This document shows, piece by piece, positions 2,061-20,193 of a DNA stretch of 20,193 nucleotides. The notes beneath the pieces are model-generated. The model was not told the DNA's origin. It ran no database searches and worked only from the letters and a program-made list of their open reading frames with translations. Origin of the DNA: a virus; the IMG/VR virus record IMGVR_UViG_3300022745_000162, positions 1 through 20,193 of that record. One strand, written 5' to 3'. Numbering within the stretch: the stretch's first letter is position 1; every line of letters begins with the position of its first letter. A program made the position numbers and the translations under genes.

Positions 2061-2372
2061 TTAGGCCTCCTCGGGCTCCTCAGCCGCGCCGAGCTGGTAC
2101 GGGCGGTAGGGGTTCAGCGGGCACGTGACCACGCCGCAGTCCCGCACCGCCTCGCGCTCGTAGTTGCAGCACGCCAAGCATTTCTGCTTAATCGCAGCCG
2201 CAGGGGGGATCTTCTTGAGCAGCGCCCGCTCGGCGGCGATCTTGTGCTTGTCAGGCACCGAGTCCCGCAAGTACTCAGCAATGCGCTCCAGGGTGCGGGG
2301 CGGCAGCGCGATACCCGCCTTAATGCGCGGTGACCTGACCCGCCGCGCGGGGGTGGCGTCAGAAGTGTTCAT
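2061..2372 (-). CDS. Small phage protein with C-terminal cysteine cluster
   Basis: A 103-residue protein of unknown function. The N-terminal half is basic and helical in character. The C-terminal part carries KCLACCNYE, then RDCG and VTCPLNPYRPY, a Cys-x2-Cys...Cys...CPLxPYR pattern common at the ends of small phage proteins and likely to bind a metal such as zinc. The tail is acidic (EEPEEA). Its start lies inside the end of the upstream helicase gene (14-nt overlap), so the two are probably translationally coupled. The position between the helicase and the primase-ATPase suggests a replication accessory or nucleic-acid-binding role, which is inference only. Confidence 0.72.
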   Translation of the reverse strand: MNTSDATPARRVRSPRIKAGIALPPRTLERIAEYLRDSVPDKHKIAAERALLKKIPPAAAIKQKCLACCNYEREAVRDCGVVTCPLNPYRPYQLGAAEEPEEA

Positions 2373-3894
2373 CTTGAGTTTCCCAAATCTCGCGTACTAC
2401 GTTCCAATAACGACCGGCCTTGCGCACCGTAACGTGCGTGGGCTGCGGTGCGCCCTTCAGCGCCCAACCCAGCCGCTGGGGCTCGTTGGGCAATTGTACG
2501 GCCAGCCTCCGCCGCTGGAAGAACTCCTGCGCTGCGGGGTTGAGCGTACTCGTGGTGATGAAAGCCGAGGCGTTCACCCGTGCGTTCTCGGGCGTGGTGC
2601 ACGTGTACTGCACCATCAGCGCCGGTCCCCGCCGCGTGTTGAGCGCCACCGCGTTCACGTTGTGCACCTGCACCCGGAGCGTAGCGCCTTCCCGCGCCTG
2701 CGCCCCCGTCGTAGGGTCCAGCGGCACCAGCGAGGTCACCCCGGGCCACACCTTGCGGGGCTCTCGCGTGGGGGCGGGCAGGGCCTCCAGCGGCTCCAGC
2801 GGGGCACGCTCGCGCACGTAAGTCTCCAGGGCGTCCACCCCGCCCAGCCGCTGCAAGTTGCCCACGTAGTCCAAGACCAGACAGTTCCTCTTGCCCTCCG
2901 CCCGACGCGTCCCCCGCCCCAGGATCTGCACCCAGAGGTTGCTCGCAGCCGTGGGCCGCAGGCACACGATGCAGTCCAGCGCGGGAAAGTCGAACCCCGT
3001 GGTCAGCGTGTCCACGCTCAGCAATACCCGCGCCTCCCCACTGAGGAATTGCTGCATCGCCCGCTCACGCTCGGCCGGGGGCATCGCACCGTACACCGTG
3101 ATCGCTGACCACCCCGTGTGCCGCAGCACTGCGAGCTCGGCACGGCGCATCGCGACCACTGAGGGGCAGTACACCGCAATGTGCTGCCGCGTGCGGGCGA
3201 GCTTAGGCAGCGACCGCGCCACCGCCCCCAGCCACTCGGAGTCCTCCCGCTCGCCCACCTCGCGCGGGTTGTAGTCCTCGGTCAGCGGAGCCGGGGGCAG
3301 CTCCAGCTGAACCTCAGTTTCCACCCCCACCAGCGGGCTCAGCCAGCCGTCCGCCACACCTTGCGGCACGGTGTAGCGGTAGCACAGGCTGTCAAACCAG
3401 TAGCTCTCGCCCGCGCCGTAAATCAACCCGTTGTCCGTGCGCCACGCGGTCGCGGTGAGCGCCACGCGCTGCGCCCCGGGGTGACGGGCGAATACCTCCC
3501 CATACATGCTGACCTCGCCGGTGCGGTGATTGACTCGGTGGGCCTCGTCAACGATGATGAGCTCCGGCGGGGGTAGGGCGTCCTGCTTCACAGGGCCGAT
3601 AATCGACTGCACGGTGCCGATCGTGACCCGGGCCTCCAGGTCCCTGCGACCCAGCCCCGCACACACCACCCCGGGCCCCATGCCCGTGTAGCGTTCGTAG
3701 GTGTCGGCGTTCTGCTGCACGAGCTGCTGCGAGTGCGTCAGCACCCACGTGCGCACTCCGCTGTGGCGAGCCAAGTCCGCTAGGATGAGCGACTTGCCCG
3801 TGCCGGTGGCCAGCTGGGCAGCGGGGTGACCGCCCGCCGCCAGTGCCGAGCGGATGGCCGCCAAGGCGGCTGTTTGGTGAGGGCGTAATTCCAT
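2359..3894 (-). CDS. Superfamily 2 DEAD/DEAH-type DNA helicase
   Basis: ATP-dependent helicase or translocase of 511 residues, probably acting in phage replication, replication-fork repair or recombination. All SF2 core motifs are visible: LRPHQ near the N-terminus, Walker A ATGTGKS (29-35), motif II IVDEAH (114-119), motif III LTATAWR (146-152), motif V SVDTLTTGFD (293-302) and motif VI QILGRGTRR (323-331). The order matches the RecG/UvsW/SSL2-like SF2 helicases found in phage replication modules. Residues about 390-511 form an extra C-terminal domain that I do not recognise. It is the first gene of the leftward operon and starts with ATG about 40 bp below a TATGAT -10 box. GGAG lies 13 nt before the ATG, rather far for a ribosome binding site. 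The substrate (fork, D-loop, R-loop) cannot be told from sequence. Confidence 0.92.
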   Translation of the reverse strand: MELRPHQTAALAAIRSALAAGGHPAAQLATGTGKSLILADLARHSGVRTWVLTHSQQLVQQNADTYERYTGMGPGVVCAGLGRRDLEARVTIGTVQSIIGPVKQDALPPPELIIVDEAHRVNHRTGEVSMYGEVFARHPGAQRVALTATAWRTDNGLIYGAGESYWFDSLCYRYTVPQGVADGWLSPLVGVETEVQLELPPAPLTEDYNPREVGEREDSEWLGAVARSLPKLARTRQHIAVYCPSVVAMRRAELAVLRHTGWSAITVYGAMPPAERERAMQQFLSGEARVLLSVDTLTTGFDFPALDCIVCLRPTAASNLWVQILGRGTRRAEGKRNCLVLDYVGNLQRLGGVDALETYVRERAPLEPLEALPAPTREPRKVWPGVTSLVPLDPTTGAQAREGATLRVQVHNVNAVALNTRRGPALMVQYTCTTPENARVNASAFITTSTLNPAAQEFFQRRRLAVQLPNEPQRLGWALKGAPQPTHVTVRKAGRYWNVVREIWETQDEHF

Positions 3895-3904
3895 AGGTGA
3901 GGCA

Positions 3905-3940
3905 GGTCTCCGTCAGTTATGAGTTAGCCTCGCGATCATA
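3905..3940 (-). promoter_or_regulatory. Leftward early promoter (-10 TATGAT) and leader
   Basis: Read on the minus strand, TATGAT occupies 3940-3935 with no good -35 hexamer 16-18 bp upstream. The expected start is near 3928. The transcribed leader (3926-3907) reads TAACTCATAACTGACGGAGA, a relative of the ATAACTGnATAACTGGAGA leader that precedes four rightward genes. The dyad centred at 3972 lies about 44 bp upstream of the expected start, a position typical of an activator that replaces a weak -35. Function is inferred. Confidence 0.5.
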
Positions 3941-3963: not shown

Positions 3964-3980
3964 GATTGTTTTTCCCAATC
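3964..3980. promoter_or_regulatory. Operator-like dyad 1 (GATTG-N7-CAATC), left member of pair
   Basis: Perfect 5-bp inverted repeat GATTG/CAATC around a 7-nt AT-rich centre (TTTTTCC). The flanks extend the symmetry to 3958-3985 with a single bulged G. The same 17-bp design recurs 30 bp to the right and twice again upstream of 17709. It lies between divergent promoters and looks like a regulator binding site; the binding protein is unknown. Confidence 0.6.
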
Positions 3981-3993
3981 GCACCTCCCGGCT

Positions 3994-4010
3994 CATTGAA
4001 AAATACAATC
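3994..4010. promoter_or_regulatory. Operator-like dyad 2 (CATTG-N7-CAATC), right member of pair
   Basis: Second copy of the dyad, with one mismatch in the left arm (CATTG) and centre AAAAATA. Its centre is at 4002, exactly 30 bp from dyad 1, so both sites face the same side of the helix (about three turns). It is centred about 43 bp upstream of the inferred rightward start near 4045. Confidence 0.58.
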
Positions 4011-4032: not shown

Positions 4033-4059
4033 TATGATTCGTTCACGGTTGAGAGACCG
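4033..4059 (+). promoter_or_regulatory. Rightward early promoter with 5'-terminal GNRA hairpin
   Basis: TATGAT at 4033-4038 is the likely -10 box; no TTGACA-like hexamer lies 16-18 bp upstream. Transcription should begin near 4045, immediately before a stem-loop: CGGTT (4046-4050), loop GAGA (4051-4054), GACCG (4055-4059), closed by a U-G pair next to a GNRA-type tetraloop. The matching cassette at 17656-17682 keeps the hairpin with a C-G pair and a GCGA loop. A hairpin at the very 5' end would be expected to slow mRNA decay; that role is inferred. Confidence 0.6.
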
Positions 4060-4061
4060 GG

Positions 4062-4085
4062 ATAACTGAATAACTGGAGAAACAC
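4062..4085 (+). promoter_or_regulatory. Repeated leader and ribosome binding site (copy A)
   Basis: The sequence ATAACTGAATAACTGGAGA followed by AACAC places GGAG 8 nt before the ATG at 4086. Near-identical leaders occur at 5232, 11362 and 17685, so the similarity goes beyond a plain Shine-Dalgarno. Confidence 0.6.
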
Positions 4086-4964
4086 ATGATCGCCTCTACC
4101 CTCGCCTCCGTCGCCACCAGCATGCTGGTCGCCTTCTACAACGCCAACACGGCGGGCAGTCCGGTGAACAAGTTCGCCGACCGCACCACCGCCGAGCGCC
4201 GCTGCGCCCTGCTGGCGGAAGAGCTCGTCGCTGAAGGCTTCAACGTAAACCAGGTCATCCACGCCATCCGCACCGGGCAAGTGCTAGCCCGCCTGAACGC
4301 CGAAGCCGACAAGCTCAAGCAGCTCGCCCTGGACAACTACGAGCTCGACGGCGGCACGACCACCGAGTGCTGCGACCACGCTGACCGCGTGGAGCTCATC
4401 AAGCAACACGGCTCCGCCGCTGCCGCCTGGGCCGCGCAGATCCGGAAGTACGAGACCACCCGCGAGATCCAAGCCTGCTACGACACGGGTGTGGAAGAGT
4501 CCGCCCCCGAGGCCTCCCAGCCTGAGATCCCGATCGTCGGTGAGTTCGTGAGTTGCCCCCACTGCGGCGTGCACCTGAGCAACGGTTACACGACCTACGA
4601 AGACCTGAAGAGCGACAAGAACCACGACGTCAACGTCAAGGACATGACCCACGAGTACATGTGCCTGGGCTGCGGCGGCAACTTCGGCCCCGCGCTGCAG
4701 CACGCCCCCAAGACCCCCAAGGCATCCGCTACCCCCGCTACGAAGCGTCCCGCGATGGCTGAGAGCATGGCGCTCGACCGCACCATCCTCGACACGACCG
4801 ACAACGTGACGTACAAGAATGCGTTCGCCGTGTACAAGGCGGGTGTGGTCAGCTCCGCCCAGTGCGACCGGCTGTCCGCCGTGTTGTACGCCGCTGCCAA
4901 GGCGGGTGACCGCACCGCCACGGTCGAAGTCAACGGTCACGTGTTCACCCTGGCCGTCAAGTGA
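4086..4964 (+). CDS. Early phage protein with zinc-ribbon insert, paralog of the 5255 gene
   Basis: A 292-residue protein of unknown function. Residues about 11-47 contain LVAFYN, then FADRTTAERRCALL; residues about 228-292 contain MALDRTI, YKNAF, DRLSAVLYAAAK and NGHVFTL. Both blocks have close counterparts, in the same order, in the 140-residue protein at 5255-5677, so the two are paralogs. Between the blocks this protein has an extra middle region with CPHC (157-160) and CLGC (193-196), a four-cysteine zinc-ribbon pattern that suggests nucleic-acid or protein binding. It is the first gene after the rightward early promoter, with a strong GGAG site, so it is probably among the earliest and most strongly made products. 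A regulator or host-takeover role is possible but not shown. Confidence 0.8.
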   Translation: MIASTLASVATSMLVAFYNANTAGSPVNKFADRTTAERRCALLAEELVAEGFNVNQVIHAIRTGQVLARLNAEADKLKQLALDNYELDGGTTTECCDHADRVELIKQHGSAAAAWAAQIRKYETTREIQACYDTGVEESAPEASQPEIPIVGEFVSCPHCGVHLSNGYTTYEDLKSDKNHDVNVKDMTHEYMCLGCGGNFGPALQHAPKTPKASATPATKRPAMAESMALDRTILDTTDNVTYKNAFAVYKAGVVSSAQCDRLSAVLYAAAKAGDRTATVEVNGHVFTLAVK

Positions 4965-5254: not shown

Positions 5255-5677
5255 ATGAACACTGTCGACTTCTCCGCGATGACCACCCCTCAGTTGGTCG
5301 CCTTCTACAACCGACACGCCAAGGTGGCCGTGCGCCGGTTCTCGGATCGCAAGACCGCGCTGAGTCGCTGCGCTGACCTGTACAAGAGCCTGGCGATGCC
5401 TACCGCCTCGCAGATCCGCCAGCGGTCCGAGGTCTCCCGCCCGAGCATGAAGGTGTCGCTGAGCCTGGACCGTCGCATCACCTGCGTGCAGACGGGCGAA
5501 GTGTGGAAGAACGCGTACCAGATGTGGGTCGAGCACAACGACTGGATGACGGGCGGGCAGCAAGATCGGCTCACCGCCGTGCTCTACTCCGCTGCCAAGC
5601 GGGGCGAGCGGGCTCAGCTGACCATCAACGGTCGCACGTTTCAGCTGGTCCACGTACAGACCCTCATTCCGGAGTGA
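5255..5677 (+). CDS. Short early phage protein, paralog of the 4086 gene without the zinc ribbon
   Basis: A 140-residue protein of unknown function. Residues 12-46 (LVAFYNRHAK, then RFSDRKTALSRCADL) match the N-terminal block of the 4086 product. Residues about 68-131 (SLSLDRRI, WKNAY, DRLTAVLYSAAKRGER, NGRTFQL) match its C-terminal block. The middle zinc-ribbon region is absent. It starts at ATG 5255 behind a GGAGAG site. The stop is followed within 5 nt by the PLP-enzyme start, so it is co-transcribed with the hypermodification genes. The conserved blocks look like two small folded units, the second perhaps a compact alpha/beta domain; no catalytic motif is evident. Confidence 0.78.
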   Translation: MNTVDFSAMTTPQLVAFYNRHAKVAVRRFSDRKTALSRCADLYKSLAMPTASQIRQRSEVSRPSMKVSLSLDRRITCVQTGEVWKNAYQMWVEHNDWMTGGQQDRLTAVLYSAAKRGERAQLTINGRTFQLVHVQTLIPE

Positions 5678-5682
5678 ACGCG

Positions 5683-6657
5683 ATGTCTTCTACTGTGTTC
5701 GACGTCCTCAGCCTGGACCGTGATCAGGTCAGCTGGGAGCAGTACCTGGGGGTGCTGACGCCCTGGGAGCTCCGCGCTGGCATCTGGTTCAAGCGCGAAG
5801 ACTACTTTGCCCCGCTGGGCTACGGGGGTCCTAACGGCTCCAAGATGCGCCAGCTCATCTGGTACGTCAACCGCTATCGCTCCGGCAAGAGCCATATCGT
5901 GACCGGGGCGAGCATCCAGTCCCCTCAGCTCAGTATGAGCGCCATCGTCGGCGCACACTACGGGCTCCGTGCCCGGCAGGTGGTCTACAGCAAGCCCTCC
6001 ACCGTGCTGCAGCACGAGAACCCGCGCATCGCCTACGGATTCGGGGCGGAGTTCGAGTGGGCCTCTGGACCGTACAACCCGATCCTGCAGCGCAAGGTGT
6101 CTGACCTGACTCAACCCGGCTCTCTGGTGGTGGAGTACGGCATCACCTTGCCGCACGACCGCTACCCGGCGGAGGATGTGCGTAAGTTTCACGAGGTCGG
6201 CGCCAACCAGGTGTCCAACCTGCCTGACGAAGTCGAGACACTGATCGTACCCGCAGGCTCGTGTAACTCGCTATGCAGCCTGCTGCTCGGGTTGAGCCGC
6301 GACTCGCATAACGTGGCGACGCTGTTCACCATCGGCATCGGGCCGAACAAGATGGATTGGGTGCGGAGCAGGATGCGCGTAATGGGGGTAGACATAGACG
6401 CGCTGCCGTTCGAGTGGAAGCACCACAGTCTGCACGACACCAAGTACGCTGCTTACAGCGACGCGTTCCGGGGCGAAGAGTACCACGGGATCTCTTTCCA
6501 TCCCACCTACGAGGCCAAGATGTGGCGCTGGCTGAACAGCGTCAACGCTCTGGGCAACGTGCTGCCTAAGAACGGGCGCACCGGGTTCTGGATCGTCGGC
6601 TCTGCGCCGAACCCGAAGGTCATCGAGCCGTTCTACACCCGCAAGTTGGAGGCCTGA
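5683..6657 (+). CDS. PLP-dependent enzyme, fold type II (ACC deaminase / D-cysteine desulfhydrase-like)
   Basis: A 324-residue pyridoxal-phosphate enzyme. The N-terminus has FKREDYFAP (36-44) and GGPNGSKMRQL (48-58), matching the family pattern KRED...GGNKxRK; Lys54 is the candidate Schiff-base lysine. VTGASIQSPQLS (73-84) corresponds to the Ser/Asn substrate loop, PAGSCNSLCSLLLGL (190-204) to the glycine-rich phosphate-binding turn, and HPTYEAKMWRWL (273-284) to the DPVYtGKa motif near the C-terminus. Members of this fold perform beta- or gamma-elimination, beta-replacement, racemisation or deamination of amino acids. The gene sits at the head of the hypermodification cluster, so the likely substrate is an amino acid attached to thymine in DNA, or the free donor amino acid; that is inference. 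ATG 5683 was chosen for GGAG 8 nt upstream. Confidence 0.82.
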   Translation: MSSTVFDVLSLDRDQVSWEQYLGVLTPWELRAGIWFKREDYFAPLGYGGPNGSKMRQLIWYVNRYRSGKSHIVTGASIQSPQLSMSAIVGAHYGLRARQVVYSKPSTVLQHENPRIAYGFGAEFEWASGPYNPILQRKVSDLTQPGSLVVEYGITLPHDRYPAEDVRKFHEVGANQVSNLPDEVETLIVPAGSCNSLCSLLLGLSRDSHNVATLFTIGIGPNKMDWVRSRMRVMGVDIDALPFEWKHHSLHDTKYAAYSDAFRGEEYHGISFHPTYEAKMWRWLNSVNALGNVLPKNGRTGFWIVGSAPNPKVIEPFYTRKLEA

Positions 6658-8793: not shown

Positions 8794-9371
8794 AGCACGT
8801 CATACTCCGAGTCGCCGGCACCTTTGGGTCGGGTAAGACCACCGCAGTGCGACAGTTCCTGGACGGCTACCCTTGCCAGGAGCTCCGCAGCGGGGGTAAG
8901 ATCGCGGGCTACCAGGTTGACCTGAGCTCTCGCGGCATCTCAACCCCGCTGTACGTTGTCGGCAAGTACGACAACGTCTGCGGCGGCACAGACGCTATCA
9001 AAACTCAGGCCGAGATCGCCGAGCGGGTGCTCAAGGCGCACACCCTGGGTCACGTACTGTACGAGGGGGCGCTGGTCTCGGCCAGCGGGTTCGCCGGGGC
9101 AGTGACTGCCGCCGTGGAGCCCACTGGCTGCGCTGTCTACGCGTACCTGGACACTCCGCAGGAGCTCTGCATCGAGCGGGTCAAGGGTCGCCGCGCGGCG
9201 GCGGGTAACGAGAAGGAGTTCGACCCTAAGAACCTGATTCAAAAGTTCGGCAGCGTCGTCAGCACTTACCGGGCTATGCGCAACACTCCCGGCTGCGACG
9301 TCCGCCTGATCAACCACCAAGATCCCCACAACCAGCTGCTCAGCATCATACAGGAGTACGACAATGATTGA
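8790..9371 (+). CDS. 5-hydroxymethyldeoxyuridine DNA kinase-like P-loop kinase
   Basis: A 193-residue P-loop kinase. Walker A is GTFGSGKTT (10-18). The stretch VVGKYDNVCGGTDAIK (56-71) has the GxY..CGGxD pattern I associate with phage 5-hmdU DNA kinases, followed by VLYEGALVS (89-97) at the Walker B position and a lid-like basic run RVKGRR (130-135). The expected reaction is phosphorylation of the hydroxymethyl group of 5-hmdU in DNA, possibly to the pyrophosphate, to make the leaving group used by the transferase encoded just upstream (ATGA overlap). Its own end overlaps the next gene by 8 nt (ATGATTGA). An adenylate- or dNMP-kinase role is the main alternative, but context argues against it. 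Confidence 0.8.
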   Translation: MKHVILRVAGTFGSGKTTAVRQFLDGYPCQELRSGGKIAGYQVDLSSRGISTPLYVVGKYDNVCGGTDAIKTQAEIAERVLKAHTLGHVLYEGALVSASGFAGAVTAAVEPTGCAVYAYLDTPQELCIERVKGRRAAAGNEKEFDPKNLIQKFGSVVSTYRAMRNTPGCDVRLINHQDPHNQLLSIIQEYDND

Positions 9372-10281
9372 CGAATGTCCGGTCGCCCGCCCAACCTGGG
9401 AGACTGTCCGCAGCGTGGACGCGGTGCTCTACTACACGTGGGAGCGTGAAGCCATCCGCCTCGCCCGGGAGAACGGCCACACCGCCCCCTACACCTCGGA
9501 CCCTATCCTCGCCCGGTACAAGTTCACCAACGTCCGCCGTCGCGACGACCGGGTGTCCCGGTGGATCATCGAGAACCTGATTGAGCCCGCCGTGGACAAC
9601 GTCGACGAGTACCTCTGGTTCACGTTGCTCATCGCTCGGTTGATCAACTGGCCCCCGTCGCTGCGGGCGCTCATCGACGCCGGGGTGCTGCCCACCTCAC
9701 CGTCAGAATTTGACGCCGAGGAGTTCATCCGCGTGGTCGAGGGCTGCAAGGCCGACGGCAAGAAGGTCTACAGCGGAGCGTACATGGTGTACCCCACGCG
9801 GGCCGAGCCCTCAGCGCCCAAGTCCCGGCTGCTGGCGGAGCGTATCCTGAGCGGAGTGATTGCGAACAGCGAAGCGATACACCGCGTCGTTTGGCTCGAC
9901 GATACGCTCAGCGTGCGGTCGATAGTGGAAATCTTGGCGCAGTGTTTCGGCATCAGCACGTTTATGGCGGGGCAGGCGACCGCTGACCTGACGTACACCG
10001 GGCTGGAGTTCTCCGACCTGTACACCTATGCCCCAATCGGCCCGGGCAGCTCGCGCGGACTGAATTACTTGTTCAACCGGGCACCGGGTGCGGGCTGGGG
10101 GCAAGATGACTTCAACCGCAAGCTCATCGACATTCGCGGTGAGATCATCGTGCGGCTGGAGATCGAGGATCTGACCCTGCACGATGTGCAGAACGTCATG
10201 TGCGAGTACAGCAAGTATGCCCGCGCGGTGCTCGGCGAGGGCATGCCCAAGAACCTCTACACGCCTGAACAGGAGTTCTGA
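9364..10281 (+). CDS. 5-hmdU DNA kinase helical-domain protein (HMUDK_hel-like)
   Basis: A 305-residue protein matching the all-helical domain associated with 5-hmdU DNA kinases (Pfam HMUDK_hel, as I recall it). Signature stretches are TWEREAIRL (25-33), PYTSDPILARYKFTNVRRRDD (42-62), LIARLINWPPSL (89-100), KKVYSGAYMVYP (133-144), FMAGQATADLTYT (200-212) and GPGSSRGLN (226-234). The NVRRRDDRVSRWI core probably contacts DNA. Here it is a free-standing protein encoded directly after the small P-loop kinase. It may therefore be a partner subunit of that kinase, or a second DNA-modification enzyme related to the pyrophosphorylase-type glycosylase fold. It is followed after 2 nt by the hydroxymethylase gene. 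The family match is strong; the biochemical role is inferred. Confidence 0.78.
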   Translation: MIDECPVARPTWETVRSVDAVLYYTWEREAIRLARENGHTAPYTSDPILARYKFTNVRRRDDRVSRWIIENLIEPAVDNVDEYLWFTLLIARLINWPPSLRALIDAGVLPTSPSEFDAEEFIRVVEGCKADGKKVYSGAYMVYPTRAEPSAPKSRLLAERILSGVIANSEAIHRVVWLDDTLSVRSIVEILAQCFGISTFMAGQATADLTYTGLEFSDLYTYAPIGPGSSRGLNYLFNRAPGAGWGQDDFNRKLIDIRGEIIVRLEIEDLTLHDVQNVMCEYSKYARAVLGEGMPKNLYTPEQEF

Positions 10282-10283
10282 AC

Positions 10284-11324
10284 ATGGAACTGGTCGTCCG
10301 CAACGTCAACGAGGCTTTCAGCGAGATCTTCTGGAAGTTGAAAGTGCTCAACCTGCAGCCGGAGCAGACCCGTAACGGTCCCGCACTAGTGTACCCGGAG
10401 CCCGTCACCACGGTGTACAAGTACCCGGCGGAGCGGGTGCTCTTCCACCCCGGGCGGGACGCCAACCCCGTGTTCCACCTGATGGAGTGCATCTGGATGC
10501 TCGCGGGGCGGAACGACGTCGCCTTCCTGCAGCAGTTCAACTCGCGCATGGGGACGTACAGCGACGACGGTAAGTCGTTCAACGCTGCCTACGGCCACCG
10601 CTGGCGCCGGCACTTCGGGCGTGACCAACTGGTGGACCTGGTGCGACTGCTGCGCAAGGACCACTCCACGCGGCAGGCGGTGCTGCAGATCTGGGACAGC
10701 GCCGACCTCACCCGCAAGACGCTTGACAAGGCGTGCAACACGCAGGTGATGTTTGACGTCCGCGCGGGGCGACTGAACATGACCGTGATCAACCGCAGCA
10801 ACGACATCTGGTGGGGGGCCTACGGCGCCAACGCGGTGCACTTCAGCTTCCTGCAGGAGTTCGTAGCCGCAGCTACCGGAATGCGCTTGGGTGTGTACCG
10901 GCAGATGAGCAACAACTTCCACCTCTACACCGAGCTCTACAACGCGCAGCAGTACCTCGTCATGCCGCCCGACCCCGGCATGTACGACCACTACTCGCAC
11001 GGCGAGGTGCGCCCCTCGCCCATCATGCTCGACGGCGAGTACCGGCTCTTCCTGACCGAGTGCGAGATGTTCTGCGCTGACCCCTTCAACGAGCGGGTGC
11101 ACTATGCCAATCCGTTCTTCACGCACGTGGCGCAGCCGATGGCCATGATTAGCCGGGTGCGCAAGACCCATGCGGGCGACGGCATGGGTTACGCGATGAA
11201 GATCCGCGCCGAGGACTGGCGTCGCGCTGCAGTTGAATGGGTGGCTCGCCGGGAGCTCGCCCGCCGCATCGCGAGCGAGAACGCCGAGCTTGGCGCGGTT
11301 CAGTCTGGGGCGCGGCAAAAGTAG
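10284..11324 (+). CDS. Thymidylate synthase-family dUMP hydroxymethylase
   Basis: A 346-residue thymidylate synthase homolog. The catalytic cysteine is Cys151 in KACNTQVMFDV. STRQAVLQIWD (128-138) supplies phosphate-binding arginine positions, RSND (171-174) with the following WWGAYGANAVHFSFLQE forms the nucleotide site, and NFHLYTELY (211-219) matches the HIYxNH segment. Asn183 occupies the position that is Asn in enzymes acting on dUMP and Asp in dCMP hydroxymethylases, so dUMP is the predicted substrate. With kinase, transferase and helical-domain genes directly upstream, the likely product is 5-hydroxymethyl-dUMP rather than dTMP, from methylenetetrahydrofolate and water. A plain thymidylate synthase is the alternative. 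The C-terminus extends about 30 residues past the core. Confidence 0.85.
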   Translation: MELVVRNVNEAFSEIFWKLKVLNLQPEQTRNGPALVYPEPVTTVYKYPAERVLFHPGRDANPVFHLMECIWMLAGRNDVAFLQQFNSRMGTYSDDGKSFNAAYGHRWRRHFGRDQLVDLVRLLRKDHSTRQAVLQIWDSADLTRKTLDKACNTQVMFDVRAGRLNMTVINRSNDIWWGAYGANAVHFSFLQEFVAAATGMRLGVYRQMSNNFHLYTELYNAQQYLVMPPDPGMYDHYSHGEVRPSPIMLDGEYRLFLTECEMFCADPFNERVHYANPFFTHVAQPMAMISRVRKTHAGDGMGYAMKIRAEDWRRAAVEWVARRELARRIASENAELGAVQSGARQK

Positions 11325-17099: not shown

Positions 17100-17572
17100 T
17101 CACCATCGGCGTGGACCCCGGGCTCAGCGGTGCCGTCGGCGTGCTCTCTGACGGCAAATTCGTAGCCGTAGAGGACATGCCCACGGTGGTCAAGGGCTCC
17201 GGCAGTGTCAAGAACGAAGTCGACCCTGCGGGGCTCATCGCGCTGCTGCGCAAGTACGCCCCGGCGGACGACTCAGTGGCCGTCGCGTTGGAGCGTGTGA
17301 ACGCAATGCCCGGGCAGGGGGTCTCCTCGATCTTCAGCCTGGGGGACAGTTTCGGCTGTGCCCGGTCGGCCATCGCGGCTTGCAGGTTCGCGACGTACTA
17401 CATCACCCCCGCGCAGTGGAAGAAGTCATTCGGGCTCACCAGCGACAAGGAACTCAGCCGTGCCTTGGCGGTGCGGCTGTACCCGGAAGCCCCGCTGCAC
17501 CTGAAGAAACACTCCGACCGGGCCGAGGCTCTGCTGCTCGCCCGGTGGCTACACGAAACCTGGTACAAATGA
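17096..17572 (+). CDS. RuvC-like Holliday junction resolvase
   Basis: A 158-residue RNase H-fold nuclease of the RuvC type. GVDPGLSGAVGVL (5-17) supplies the first Asp (Asp7), VAVALERVNAMPGQG (61-75) the Glu (Glu66), and KKHSDRAEALLLARW (137-151) the C-terminal His/Asp site (Asp141). RuvC-like phage enzymes cut four-way junctions and branched DNA before packaging. ATG 17096 overlaps the preceding stop as ATGA and directly precedes the first beta strand, so this start is firm. It is the last gene before the second promoter cassette. Confidence 0.9.
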   Translation: MITIGVDPGLSGAVGVLSDGKFVAVEDMPTVVKGSGSVKNEVDPAGLIALLRKYAPADDSVAVALERVNAMPGQGVSSIFSLGDSFGCARSAIAACRFATYYITPAQWKKSFGLTSDKELSRALAVRLYPEAPLHLKKHSDRAEALLLARWLHETWYK

Positions 17573-17577
17573 CTCGC

Positions 17578-17612
17578 CCCGGCTCCGATTGCTTTTCACA
17601 ATCGGAGCCGGG
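17578..17612. promoter_or_regulatory. Perfect 14-bp inverted repeat containing operator-like dyad 3
   Basis: CCCGGCTCCGATTG (17578-17591) and its exact complement (17599-17612) flank a 7-nt loop CTTTTCA. The inner GATTG-N7-CAATC (17587-17603) is the same dyad as at 3964. It begins 5 nt after the resolvase stop. The RNA hairpin would be strong, but no T-run follows, so a Rho-independent terminator is possible only in a loose sense. Confidence 0.6.
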
Positions 17613-17616
17613 ACGC

Positions 17617-17633
17617 GATTGAAAAATACAATC
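17617..17633. promoter_or_regulatory. Operator-like dyad 4 (GATTG-N7-CAATC)
   Basis: Perfect arms around AAAAATA, identical in centre to dyad 2 and again 30 bp from its partner. Its centre (17625) lies about 43 bp upstream of the inferred start near 17668, as in the first cassette. Confidence 0.6.
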
Positions 17634-17655: not shown

Positions 17656-17682
17656 TATAGTTCGTTCACGGTCGCGAGACCG
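17656..17682 (+). promoter_or_regulatory. Second early-type promoter with 5'-terminal GNRA hairpin
   Basis: TATAGT (17656-17661) is the -10 candidate; the -35 region is poor. The start near 17668 would place CGGTC (17669-17673), loop GCGA, GACCG (17678-17682) at the mRNA 5' end. From the dyad through the leader this cassette is nearly identical to 3994-4085, including CTGAACGCGGAAT and TTCGTTCACGGT. Confidence 0.6.
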
Positions 17683-17684
17683 CA

Positions 17685-17708
17685 ATAACTGAATAACTGG
17701 AGAGAAAC
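17685..17708 (+). promoter_or_regulatory. Repeated leader and ribosome binding site (copy D)
   Basis: ATAACTGAATAACTGGAGA then GAAAC precedes ATG 17709. The first 19 nt are identical to copy A at 4062. Confidence 0.6.
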
Positions 17709-18026
17709 ATGAGCATCAGCACACAACACACGCCGGGGCCGTGGCTCCTAAACACGCAGTACGCCGACATTGAAGTCCGTGGCCCTGCGGACAGCGGCGT
17801 GCTCATCGCAACGATGGCACCGTGGGGAGATGCCGCCGATGCGCCGAGCCCGCAAGCGGCCAACGCCCGTCTGATCGCTGCGGCCCCGGAGTTGTTGAAG
17901 ACTCTTGTCGGCCTCTTGGACTCGATGGCTGAAATCCGTTCTGGCGACTTCGTCATCGCCCGCGATAGCGTCTGGCTCGACGCAGCAGAATCCGTTATCG
18001 CCAAGGCCACCGGGAGCGCGGCATGA
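17709..18026 (+). CDS. Small phage accessory protein (HTPGPW...ANARLIAAAPELL type)
   Basis: A 105-residue protein of a widespread but uncharacterised phage/prophage type. It shows the usual N-terminal HTPGPWLLN (7-15), a central beta segment (GVLIATMAPWG) and the strongly conserved helix ANARLIAAAPELLKTLVGLLD (51-71), followed by WLDAAESVIAKA. It is the first gene behind the second promoter cassette and ends in an ATGA overlap with the next gene. No catalytic residues are evident. Confidence 0.78.
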   Translation: MSISTQHTPGPWLLNTQYADIEVRGPADSGVLIATMAPWGDAADAPSPQAANARLIAAAPELLKTLVGLLDSMAEIRSGDFVIARDSVWLDAAESVIAKATGSAA

Positions 18027-18649
18027 CCCGCCGCCACGTTATATGGTCCGAAGACGAACGCGACATCCTCCGCAAGGAGATGACGCGGCTCATCGTGGCG
18101 GCCTACCCACGGCACTACTCCTCCCGGGAGCTTGTCCGCGAATCCCAGCAGGTGTTGCCCTCGGACCGCCGTCGGCCCATCTACGGCAACACCATCGCCA
18201 CCCTGCTCCCGCTCATCGAGTCCGCCCGGGGTCAGGCGATCGCTTGTCGCCTGAATCAGCCGCCGAAAATTCAGCCGGTGCCGACGCTCGAACCCGTGCA
18301 GGAGGAGCCCGCACAACCCCCTGCAACTCCGCATGAGATGCTCCTAGGGGCGCTGTTCGAGAATCTGGTCGACCTCCTGGCCGACCGCATCATCATGCGC
18401 GTGCTGGATGCGCTGCCCCGGGAGGCCGCACCCGAAGCCAAGTTCCAGCGGCACCACACCCCCTGGCAGCAGGAGCAAGGTAAGCCGGACCTGCGCCCCG
18501 GGGTGTTGGTCATCGGGCTGCTGGATTCGCAGGTCAGGTTCGCGGCCGACCGCCACCCGGGGCTGGACCTGACGTTCCTGACCGCGGAGGGGGCCGCGCA
18601 GCGCCACCAGGTGCGCCGTGCTCACACCGTGCTCACACCGTGCTCATGA
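18023..18649 (+). pseudogene. Accessory phage protein, apparently truncated by an 11-bp duplication frameshift
   Basis: Open frame of 208 codons starting by ATGA overlap with the previous gene. The N-terminus (VIWSEDERDILRKEMTRLIVA) looks like a small helical DNA-binding or adaptor unit, a Pro-rich linker follows (about 80-105), and the C-terminal part has the alpha/beta stretch PGVLVIGLLDSQVRFAADRH. The frame ends at TGA 18647-18649 just after a tandem duplication of GTGCTCACACC. Removing one copy joins it to the frame at 18646-18777 and gives a protein of 247 residues that continues HTVLMTRFISHAA. It may be a broken gene, a phase-variable gene, two coupled polypeptides, or an assembly error. 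Function unknown. Confidence 0.65.
18618..18639 (+). repeat. 11-bp tandem duplication (GTGCTCACACC x2)
   Basis: Two perfect copies at 18618-18628 and 18629-18639, followed by a partial third (GTGCTCA, 18640-18646). Eleven is not a multiple of three, so the duplication shifts the reading frame of the surrounding gene. Confidence 0.9.
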
Positions 18650-19992: not shown

Positions 19993-20193
19993 ATGAAGCA
20001 CCAGATCAAGCACATCAACGGGTCCGTCCTGTACGAGGCCGATATCCCGGATGACACGCCGAGCGGAATGGCTGTGCGGGTAGCTCTGGAGAATGCCACC
20101 AAGCGGGGGGCTTACCTGCAGGGGGCTGACCTGCGGTGGGCTGACCTGCAGGGGGCTGACCTGCGGTGGGCTGACCTGCGGGGGGCTTACCTG
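19993..20193 (+). CDS. Pentapeptide-repeat protein (partial, cut by right edge)
   Basis: The first 67 residues are visible. A short N-terminal region (MKHQIKHINGSVLYEADIP) with an ALENATKRG helix leads into tandem A(D/Y)L(Q/R)(G/W) pentapeptides: AYLQG, ADLRW, ADLQG, ADLRW, ADLRG, AYL, still continuing at the edge. Such repeats fold as a right-handed quadrilateral beta-helix; some members (Qnr, MfpA) mimic DNA and bind gyrase. The coding repeats are near-identical 15- and 30-bp DNA repeats, so copy number may vary between relatives. Its role here is unknown. Confidence 0.82.
   Translation, partial: MKHQIKHINGSVLYEADIPDDTPSGMAVRVALENATKRGAYLQGADLRWADLQGADLRWADLRGAYL

Follow-up and report, generated by a model that had tools for sequence, protein, structure and literature searches.

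In class II activation, a regulator binds a site that overlaps or touches the -35 element, near -41.5 and in a fixed helical phase, and contacts polymerase to raise transcription. At the lambda promoter PRM, a CI dimer activates from a 17-bp operator near -42 and the neighboring operator is bound cooperatively. The small Cys4 zinc proteins Ogr of P2 and Delta of P4 activate phage promoters from dyads, the Ogr sites lying near -55, and LysR-type sites such as those of OxyR follow a T-N11-A outline. In phage Mu, Mor recruits the host sigma-70 polymerase to the middle promoter Pm (PMC4390567, PMC4287176). The element that it binds there is 16 bp long, contains two 5-bp inverted repeats, is centered at -43.5, and replaces the -35 element (PMC4390567).

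The window analyzed here, a 20,193-bp virus record taken as a whole, carries two 17-bp dyads in the intergenic region between a leftward helicase gene (start at 3894) and a rightward gene at 4086 (Table 1). Their centers, at 3972 and 4002, are 30 bp apart, as a first-pass annotation of this DNA had described; its label for the pair, GATTG-N7-CAATC, is exact for the left dyad only, since the right one matches at nine of ten positions, with C instead of G as the outermost base. The window has four dyad sites with at most one mismatch, where 0.26 would be expected; a count of four was not attained in any of 100 shuffles. The annotation had also suggested a scan for the motif; run on the window, it revealed a second pair (17587/17617) that had been overlooked there. 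This pair has the same 30-bp spacing, follows ruvC (stop at 17572), and lies ahead of the rightward gene at 17709 only. The stretch between proximal dyad and start codon, approximately 90 bp long, is similar in sequence in both places. Directly after ruvC, a perfect 14-bp inverted repeat, CCCGGCTCCGATTG-N7-CAATCGGAGCCGGG (17578-17612), encloses the distal dyad.

Table 1. Coordinates and properties of the dyads, promoters, leader hairpins and neighboring genes in the window.
Feature	Position	Strand	Remarks
Cys4 protein, 103 aa, C-x2-C-x10-C-x4-C	2061-2372	-	Candidate regulator
SF2 helicase	2359-3894	-	First gene of the leftward operon
-10 TATGAT, leftward helicase/primase promoter	3935-3940	-	Inferred start ~3928; -10 conserved in relatives
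Left dyad, GATTGTTTTTCCCAATC	3964-3980		Proximal for the leftward promoter, distal for the rightward promoter; 10/10 match
Right dyad, CATTGAAAAATACAATC	3994-4010		Proximal for the rightward promoter; 9/10 match, conserved in relatives
-10 TATGAT, rightward promoter	4033-4038	+	Inferred start ~4045; matches paralogous and orthologous promoters
Leader hairpin CGGTT-GAGA-GACCG	4046-4059	+	Begins at inferred +2
Zinc-ribbon protein	4086-4964	+	First rightward gene; second candidate regulator; C-terminal domain weakly like DNA-binding folds
Second pair, distal dyad, GATTGCTTTTCACAATC	17587-17603		Exact; inside the perfect 14-bp inverted repeat 17578-17591/17599-17612
Second pair, proximal dyad, GATTGAAAAATACAATC	17617-17633		Exact; center at inferred -43
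-10 TATAGT, second, one-way promoter	17656-17661	+	Inferred start ~17668; 31 bp from the dyad center
Leader hairpin CGGTC-GCGA-GACCG of the second promoter	17669-17682	+	Begins at inferred +2

Other features of the window include likely thymine hypermodification genes, namely a threonine-dehydratase-like gene (5683-6657), a 5-hmdU DNA kinase helical domain (9364-10281) and a thymidylate-synthase-like protein (10284-11324), the last recognized by eye. A 15-bp tandem repeat in six copies (20103-20193) encodes a pentapeptide-repeat-like protein cut off by the end of the contig, and the 11-bp tandem repeat CCGTGCTCACA (2.8 copies, 18616-18646) is located at the end of ORF 18023-18649.

When the transcription start was taken as 12 bases after the first base of the -10 element (3928, 4045, and 17668), the proximal dyads came to be centered at -44, -43, and -43, respectively. 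Recalculation thus returned the distances of about 44 and 43 bp given earlier for the leftward and rightward promoters. The good -10 (TATGAT) and poor -35 ascribed to both were confirmed as well: the best hexamer at 16-18 bp spacing matches the -35 consensus at two of six positions on each side, approximately the chance level. A hairpin at inferred +2 in both rightward leaders supports the start-site calls, as does a stem with four or more pairs in the same position in 17 of 28 distinct family promoters, where about 1.9 equally stable stems were expected from shuffles. In the rightward leaders of the window (4045-4085 and 17668-17708) and of relatives, the short hairpin is placed at +1 to +3, its sequence varying among phages while its place is kept; in the window it is followed by a AATAACTGAATAACTGGAGA-like sequence. 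The leader hairpin may protect the 5' end of the mRNA.

Relatives were collected by an IMG/VR scan with the threonine-dehydratase-like protein, which yielded 80 loci at 61-81% identity, 41 of them covering the helicase start; the larger ones (approximately 50-60 kb) have the operon layout of the window. Paired dyads were located upstream of the helicase gene in 14 of these 41 loci and in a fifteenth relative, G033, whose right box is degenerate. On the helicase tree, dyad-bearing phages span deep branches and the dyad-less ones form one clade plus a separate tip, L131, giving two changes of dyad state. Further box sites in the relatives are found at the junction of the thymidylate-synthase-like and YfbR-like genes, after ruvC, and in one or two other places. 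At the junction, the 17-mer GATTTGAAAATACAATC is usually exact and is unchanged in many relatives despite differing flanks; it occurs in 31 IMG/VR contigs, in which carriers of the family genes have it at this junction and the rest are unrelated contigs. The distal box there is, in most relatives, the inner half-site CAATC only, at a spacing of 31 and overlapping part of the end of the upstream gene. The paired box is not specific to divergent promoters, as it recurs at one-way promoters after ruvC and at this junction. Because the 30-31 bp arrangement is kept at one-way promoters, the distal box probably helps the same promoter as the proximal one.

Outside the family, the pair pattern matched 35 IMG/VR contigs compared to 30 for a permuted control, and on account of these nearly equal counts no enrichment in unrelated phages is claimed. 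Among the matches, L008, L018, and L025 resemble real promoters; these three and two further unrelated phages (L029 and L030) have GATTG-N7-CAATC pairs 22 bp apart, some by promoter-like sequence. A DNA search of isolated phages with the dyad region gave no match, and a prophage search for the host found no relative.

The geometry was examined at 40 promoter-proximal sites from the window and its relatives, with -10 elements assigned by eye. The boxes of a pair are 31 bp apart in 31 cases and 30 bp apart in nine. From the proximal center to the -10, the distance is 29-33 bp at 34 sites and 43 (n=2), 52 (n=3), or 62 bp (n=1) at the remaining six; these longer distances, at about +12, +21, and +31, correspond to approximately one, two, and three helical turns beyond 31 bp, the 43-bp cases deviating by 1-2 bp from an exact turn. 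On the inferred starts, this is the geometry of class II activation. We consider it probable, judging from sequence, that the dyads are sites of a dimeric activator that replaces the -35 element from about -43, binds cooperatively with the upstream box, and serves several promoters. The activator geometry proposed in the first-pass annotation is strengthened by the conserved spacing, the roughly whole-turn shifts, and the exchange of dyad and -35 described below, whereas its description as a divergent-promoter device has to be given up. Whole-turn shifts would be left unexplained if the boxes were repressor operators, on which cooperatively bound dimers, one per box, shut polymerase out of both promoters at an early or late stage of infection. 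Such operators appear unlikely to us, even though the dyads touch the -35 position and a cooperative repressor would be well served by two operators at a distance of about three turns.

The sites, their spacing, their conservation, and the loss of the -35 can be read off the DNA directly. At deep dyad-bearing promoters, the mean -35 match is 2.56 (left) and 2.80 (right) of 6, compared to 2.47 by chance; at dyad-less promoters it is 3.61 and 3.79, respectively. On the left side, the best hexamer starts with TTG in 0/9 deep dyad-bearing versus 15/18 dyad-less phages (Fisher 5e-5), and on the right side in 2/10 versus 15/19 (Fisher 0.005), P values that overstate the evidence and should be taken as indicative only, since the phages have a common ancestry (the dyad-less ones are mostly one clade and hence non-independent points) and the -10 elements were assigned by eye. 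Breaking ties the opposite way changed the left-side counts to 2/9 and 17/18. In most dyad-less phages, a hexamer identical or similar to TTGCCT lies at 16-18 bp; TTGCCT is found both in the large dyad-less clade and in L131, a separate dyad loss, where it stands at the rightward promoter. In the L062/L063 clade, which is the sister group of the large dyad-less clade, dyads and a -35 mostly occur together, and L061 is an exception with neither. Repressor operators would be compatible with the good -35s of the L062/L063 clade and with the dyads that accompany TTGACA or TTGCCT in L063/L065/L132; however, they leave unexplained why the -35 is at chance level in most dyad-bearing phages and present in dyad-less relatives. 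In the simplest history, box and -35 would be interchangeable means of recruiting polymerase.

The composition and placement of the boxes bear on two further explanations. A-tracts at the box center might bind the polymerase alpha subunit as an UP-element does, or bend the DNA, with no dedicated regulator involved. In the consensus, AAAA in most proximal sites does point toward its own promoter, but the flanking half-sites ATT and CAA are better conserved than the center and some sites have T-tracts instead, and we regard this explanation as very improbable. That the boxes are replication-origin repeats, RNA hairpins, or terminators is hardly credible: the inverted repeat around the distal dyad after ruvC would fit, yet it has no T-run, and no such extension of the dyad was observed after ruvC in G017 and G022. 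In addition, each genome has several loci at which the boxes precede the inferred start and keep a fixed distance to the -10.

Taking activation as the preferred reading, we infer the start sites, protein binding, dimerisation, cooperativity, and activation itself. A dimer on the proximal box, at about -43, would sit just upstream of the -35 position and touch it, and would recruit RNA polymerase to promoters with a good -10 and no -35. A second dimer would occupy the upstream box, which at 30-31 bp lies about three helical turns away on the same face, probably through cooperative binding. Between the helicase gene and the rightward operon, the boxes are placed head to head, each being proximal to one promoter and distal to the other, and would in this way co-activate the replication and hypermodification genes; shared control of the two blocks is plausible. 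The same paired unit would also drive one-way promoters elsewhere in the genome. One protein might instead act as a timing switch, activating from the proximal box and repressing one or both promoters once the distal box, or both boxes, are filled. Several phage regulators are dual, and two boxes are kept even at one-way promoters, but the second state is only postulated, and we consider such a switch improbable.

We looked for the putative activator among the genes of the dyad-bearing phages, and found none that is common to all of these genomes yet absent from the rest. The Cys4 protein was present in 10 of the 11 dyad-bearing relatives in which the junction is covered and in 0 of 23 dyad-less ones. 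A profile search with it picked G033, in whose helicase upstream region a dyad was then found; it is absent from G017, whose dyads are good. Comparison of the Cys4 protein with Pfam, PHROG, and PDB gave no clear match, and the weak fold match of its AlphaFold model (Z 4.4) was disregarded because the mean pLDDT was 62. The zinc ribbon of the first rightward gene occurs in dyad phages only, L102 and L228 among them, and the C-terminal 60 residues of the protein showed weak matches to the DNA-binding protein 8b6e (Z 4.7) and to the C-terminal region of I-HmuI (Z 4.2). In L062 and G033 the family members have no ribbon, and L063/L065/L132 yielded no member of the family, although all of these phages are dyad-bearing. 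The proteins encoded at 4086-4964 and 5255-5677 belong to one family (PHROG 4730 at the N-terminus), with an inserted zinc ribbon in one and none in the other. Both associations may be mere linkage, since the Cys4 protein and the zinc ribbon follow the phage tree.

Searches for known regulator families gave little. No XRE (HTH_3) gene scored over the cut-off in 18 phage records, which also counts against a repressor, although diverged HTHs could escape. MarR_2 gave nothing over the cut-off in the phages and one sub-threshold match; the Mor family (PF08765) was matched in 0 of 19 phage records at E<=0.5, the window record being a 20-kb fragment; and Ogr_Delta (PF04606) had no match over the cut-off in 19 records. 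A winged-helix gene, G017|24697, was rejected as the reader of the boxes because only five of eight large dyad-bearing genomes have it. Exact-box pairs with spacing of the 30-31 bp type gave four matches, all unrelated, in about 85,000 bacterial genomes, a near-absence that makes a host system based on such pairs slightly less likely. An activator encoded by the phage is slightly favored over a host-encoded one, and a host factor is possible as the reader of the boxes. Our tentative suggestion is that a phage activator of a new family, either the Cys4 or the zinc-ribbon protein, may read a paired box that has been exchangeable for the -35 in evolution and control a multi-promoter regulon in hypermodification phages of about 59 kb.

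For a widespread family of phages that are uncultured and probably modify their DNA, the analysis predicts a regulon down to its exact sites. It also supplies a natural series of phages in which activator box and -35 seem to substitute for each other, and it narrows the search for the activator to a few candidates. Compared with known systems, GATTG-N7-CAATC fits the T-N11-A outline of LysR-type sites, an outline that is weak evidence taken alone. The Cys4 protein shares C-x2-C ... C-x4-C with Ogr and Delta, but its middle cysteine spacing is 10 rather than 22, the box centers are mostly near -43 instead of -55, and Ogr_Delta gave no match over the cut-off. Like the lambda CI operator at PRM, the proximal dyad is a 17-bp site near -43 with a neighboring box; the spacing of 30-31 bp, however, differs from the ~23-24 bp of lambda, several promoters are involved, and no HTH_3/XRE protein exceeded the cut-off in the 18 records. 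As at Mu Pm, two 5-bp repeats, here within 17 bp, are centered at inferred -43 at promoters with no -35, a feature that, on the inferred starts, is present in the window and the deep dyad-bearing relatives and not in the L062/L063 clade. Membership in the Mor system is not claimed, because no Mor protein was found; the 19 phage records contain no Mor/C-family gene, and the present sites, unlike that of Mu, are paired 30-31 bp apart and recur at several promoters. On this evidence, Mu Pm/Mor is the nearest described system, and the paired boxes would work in a similar manner.
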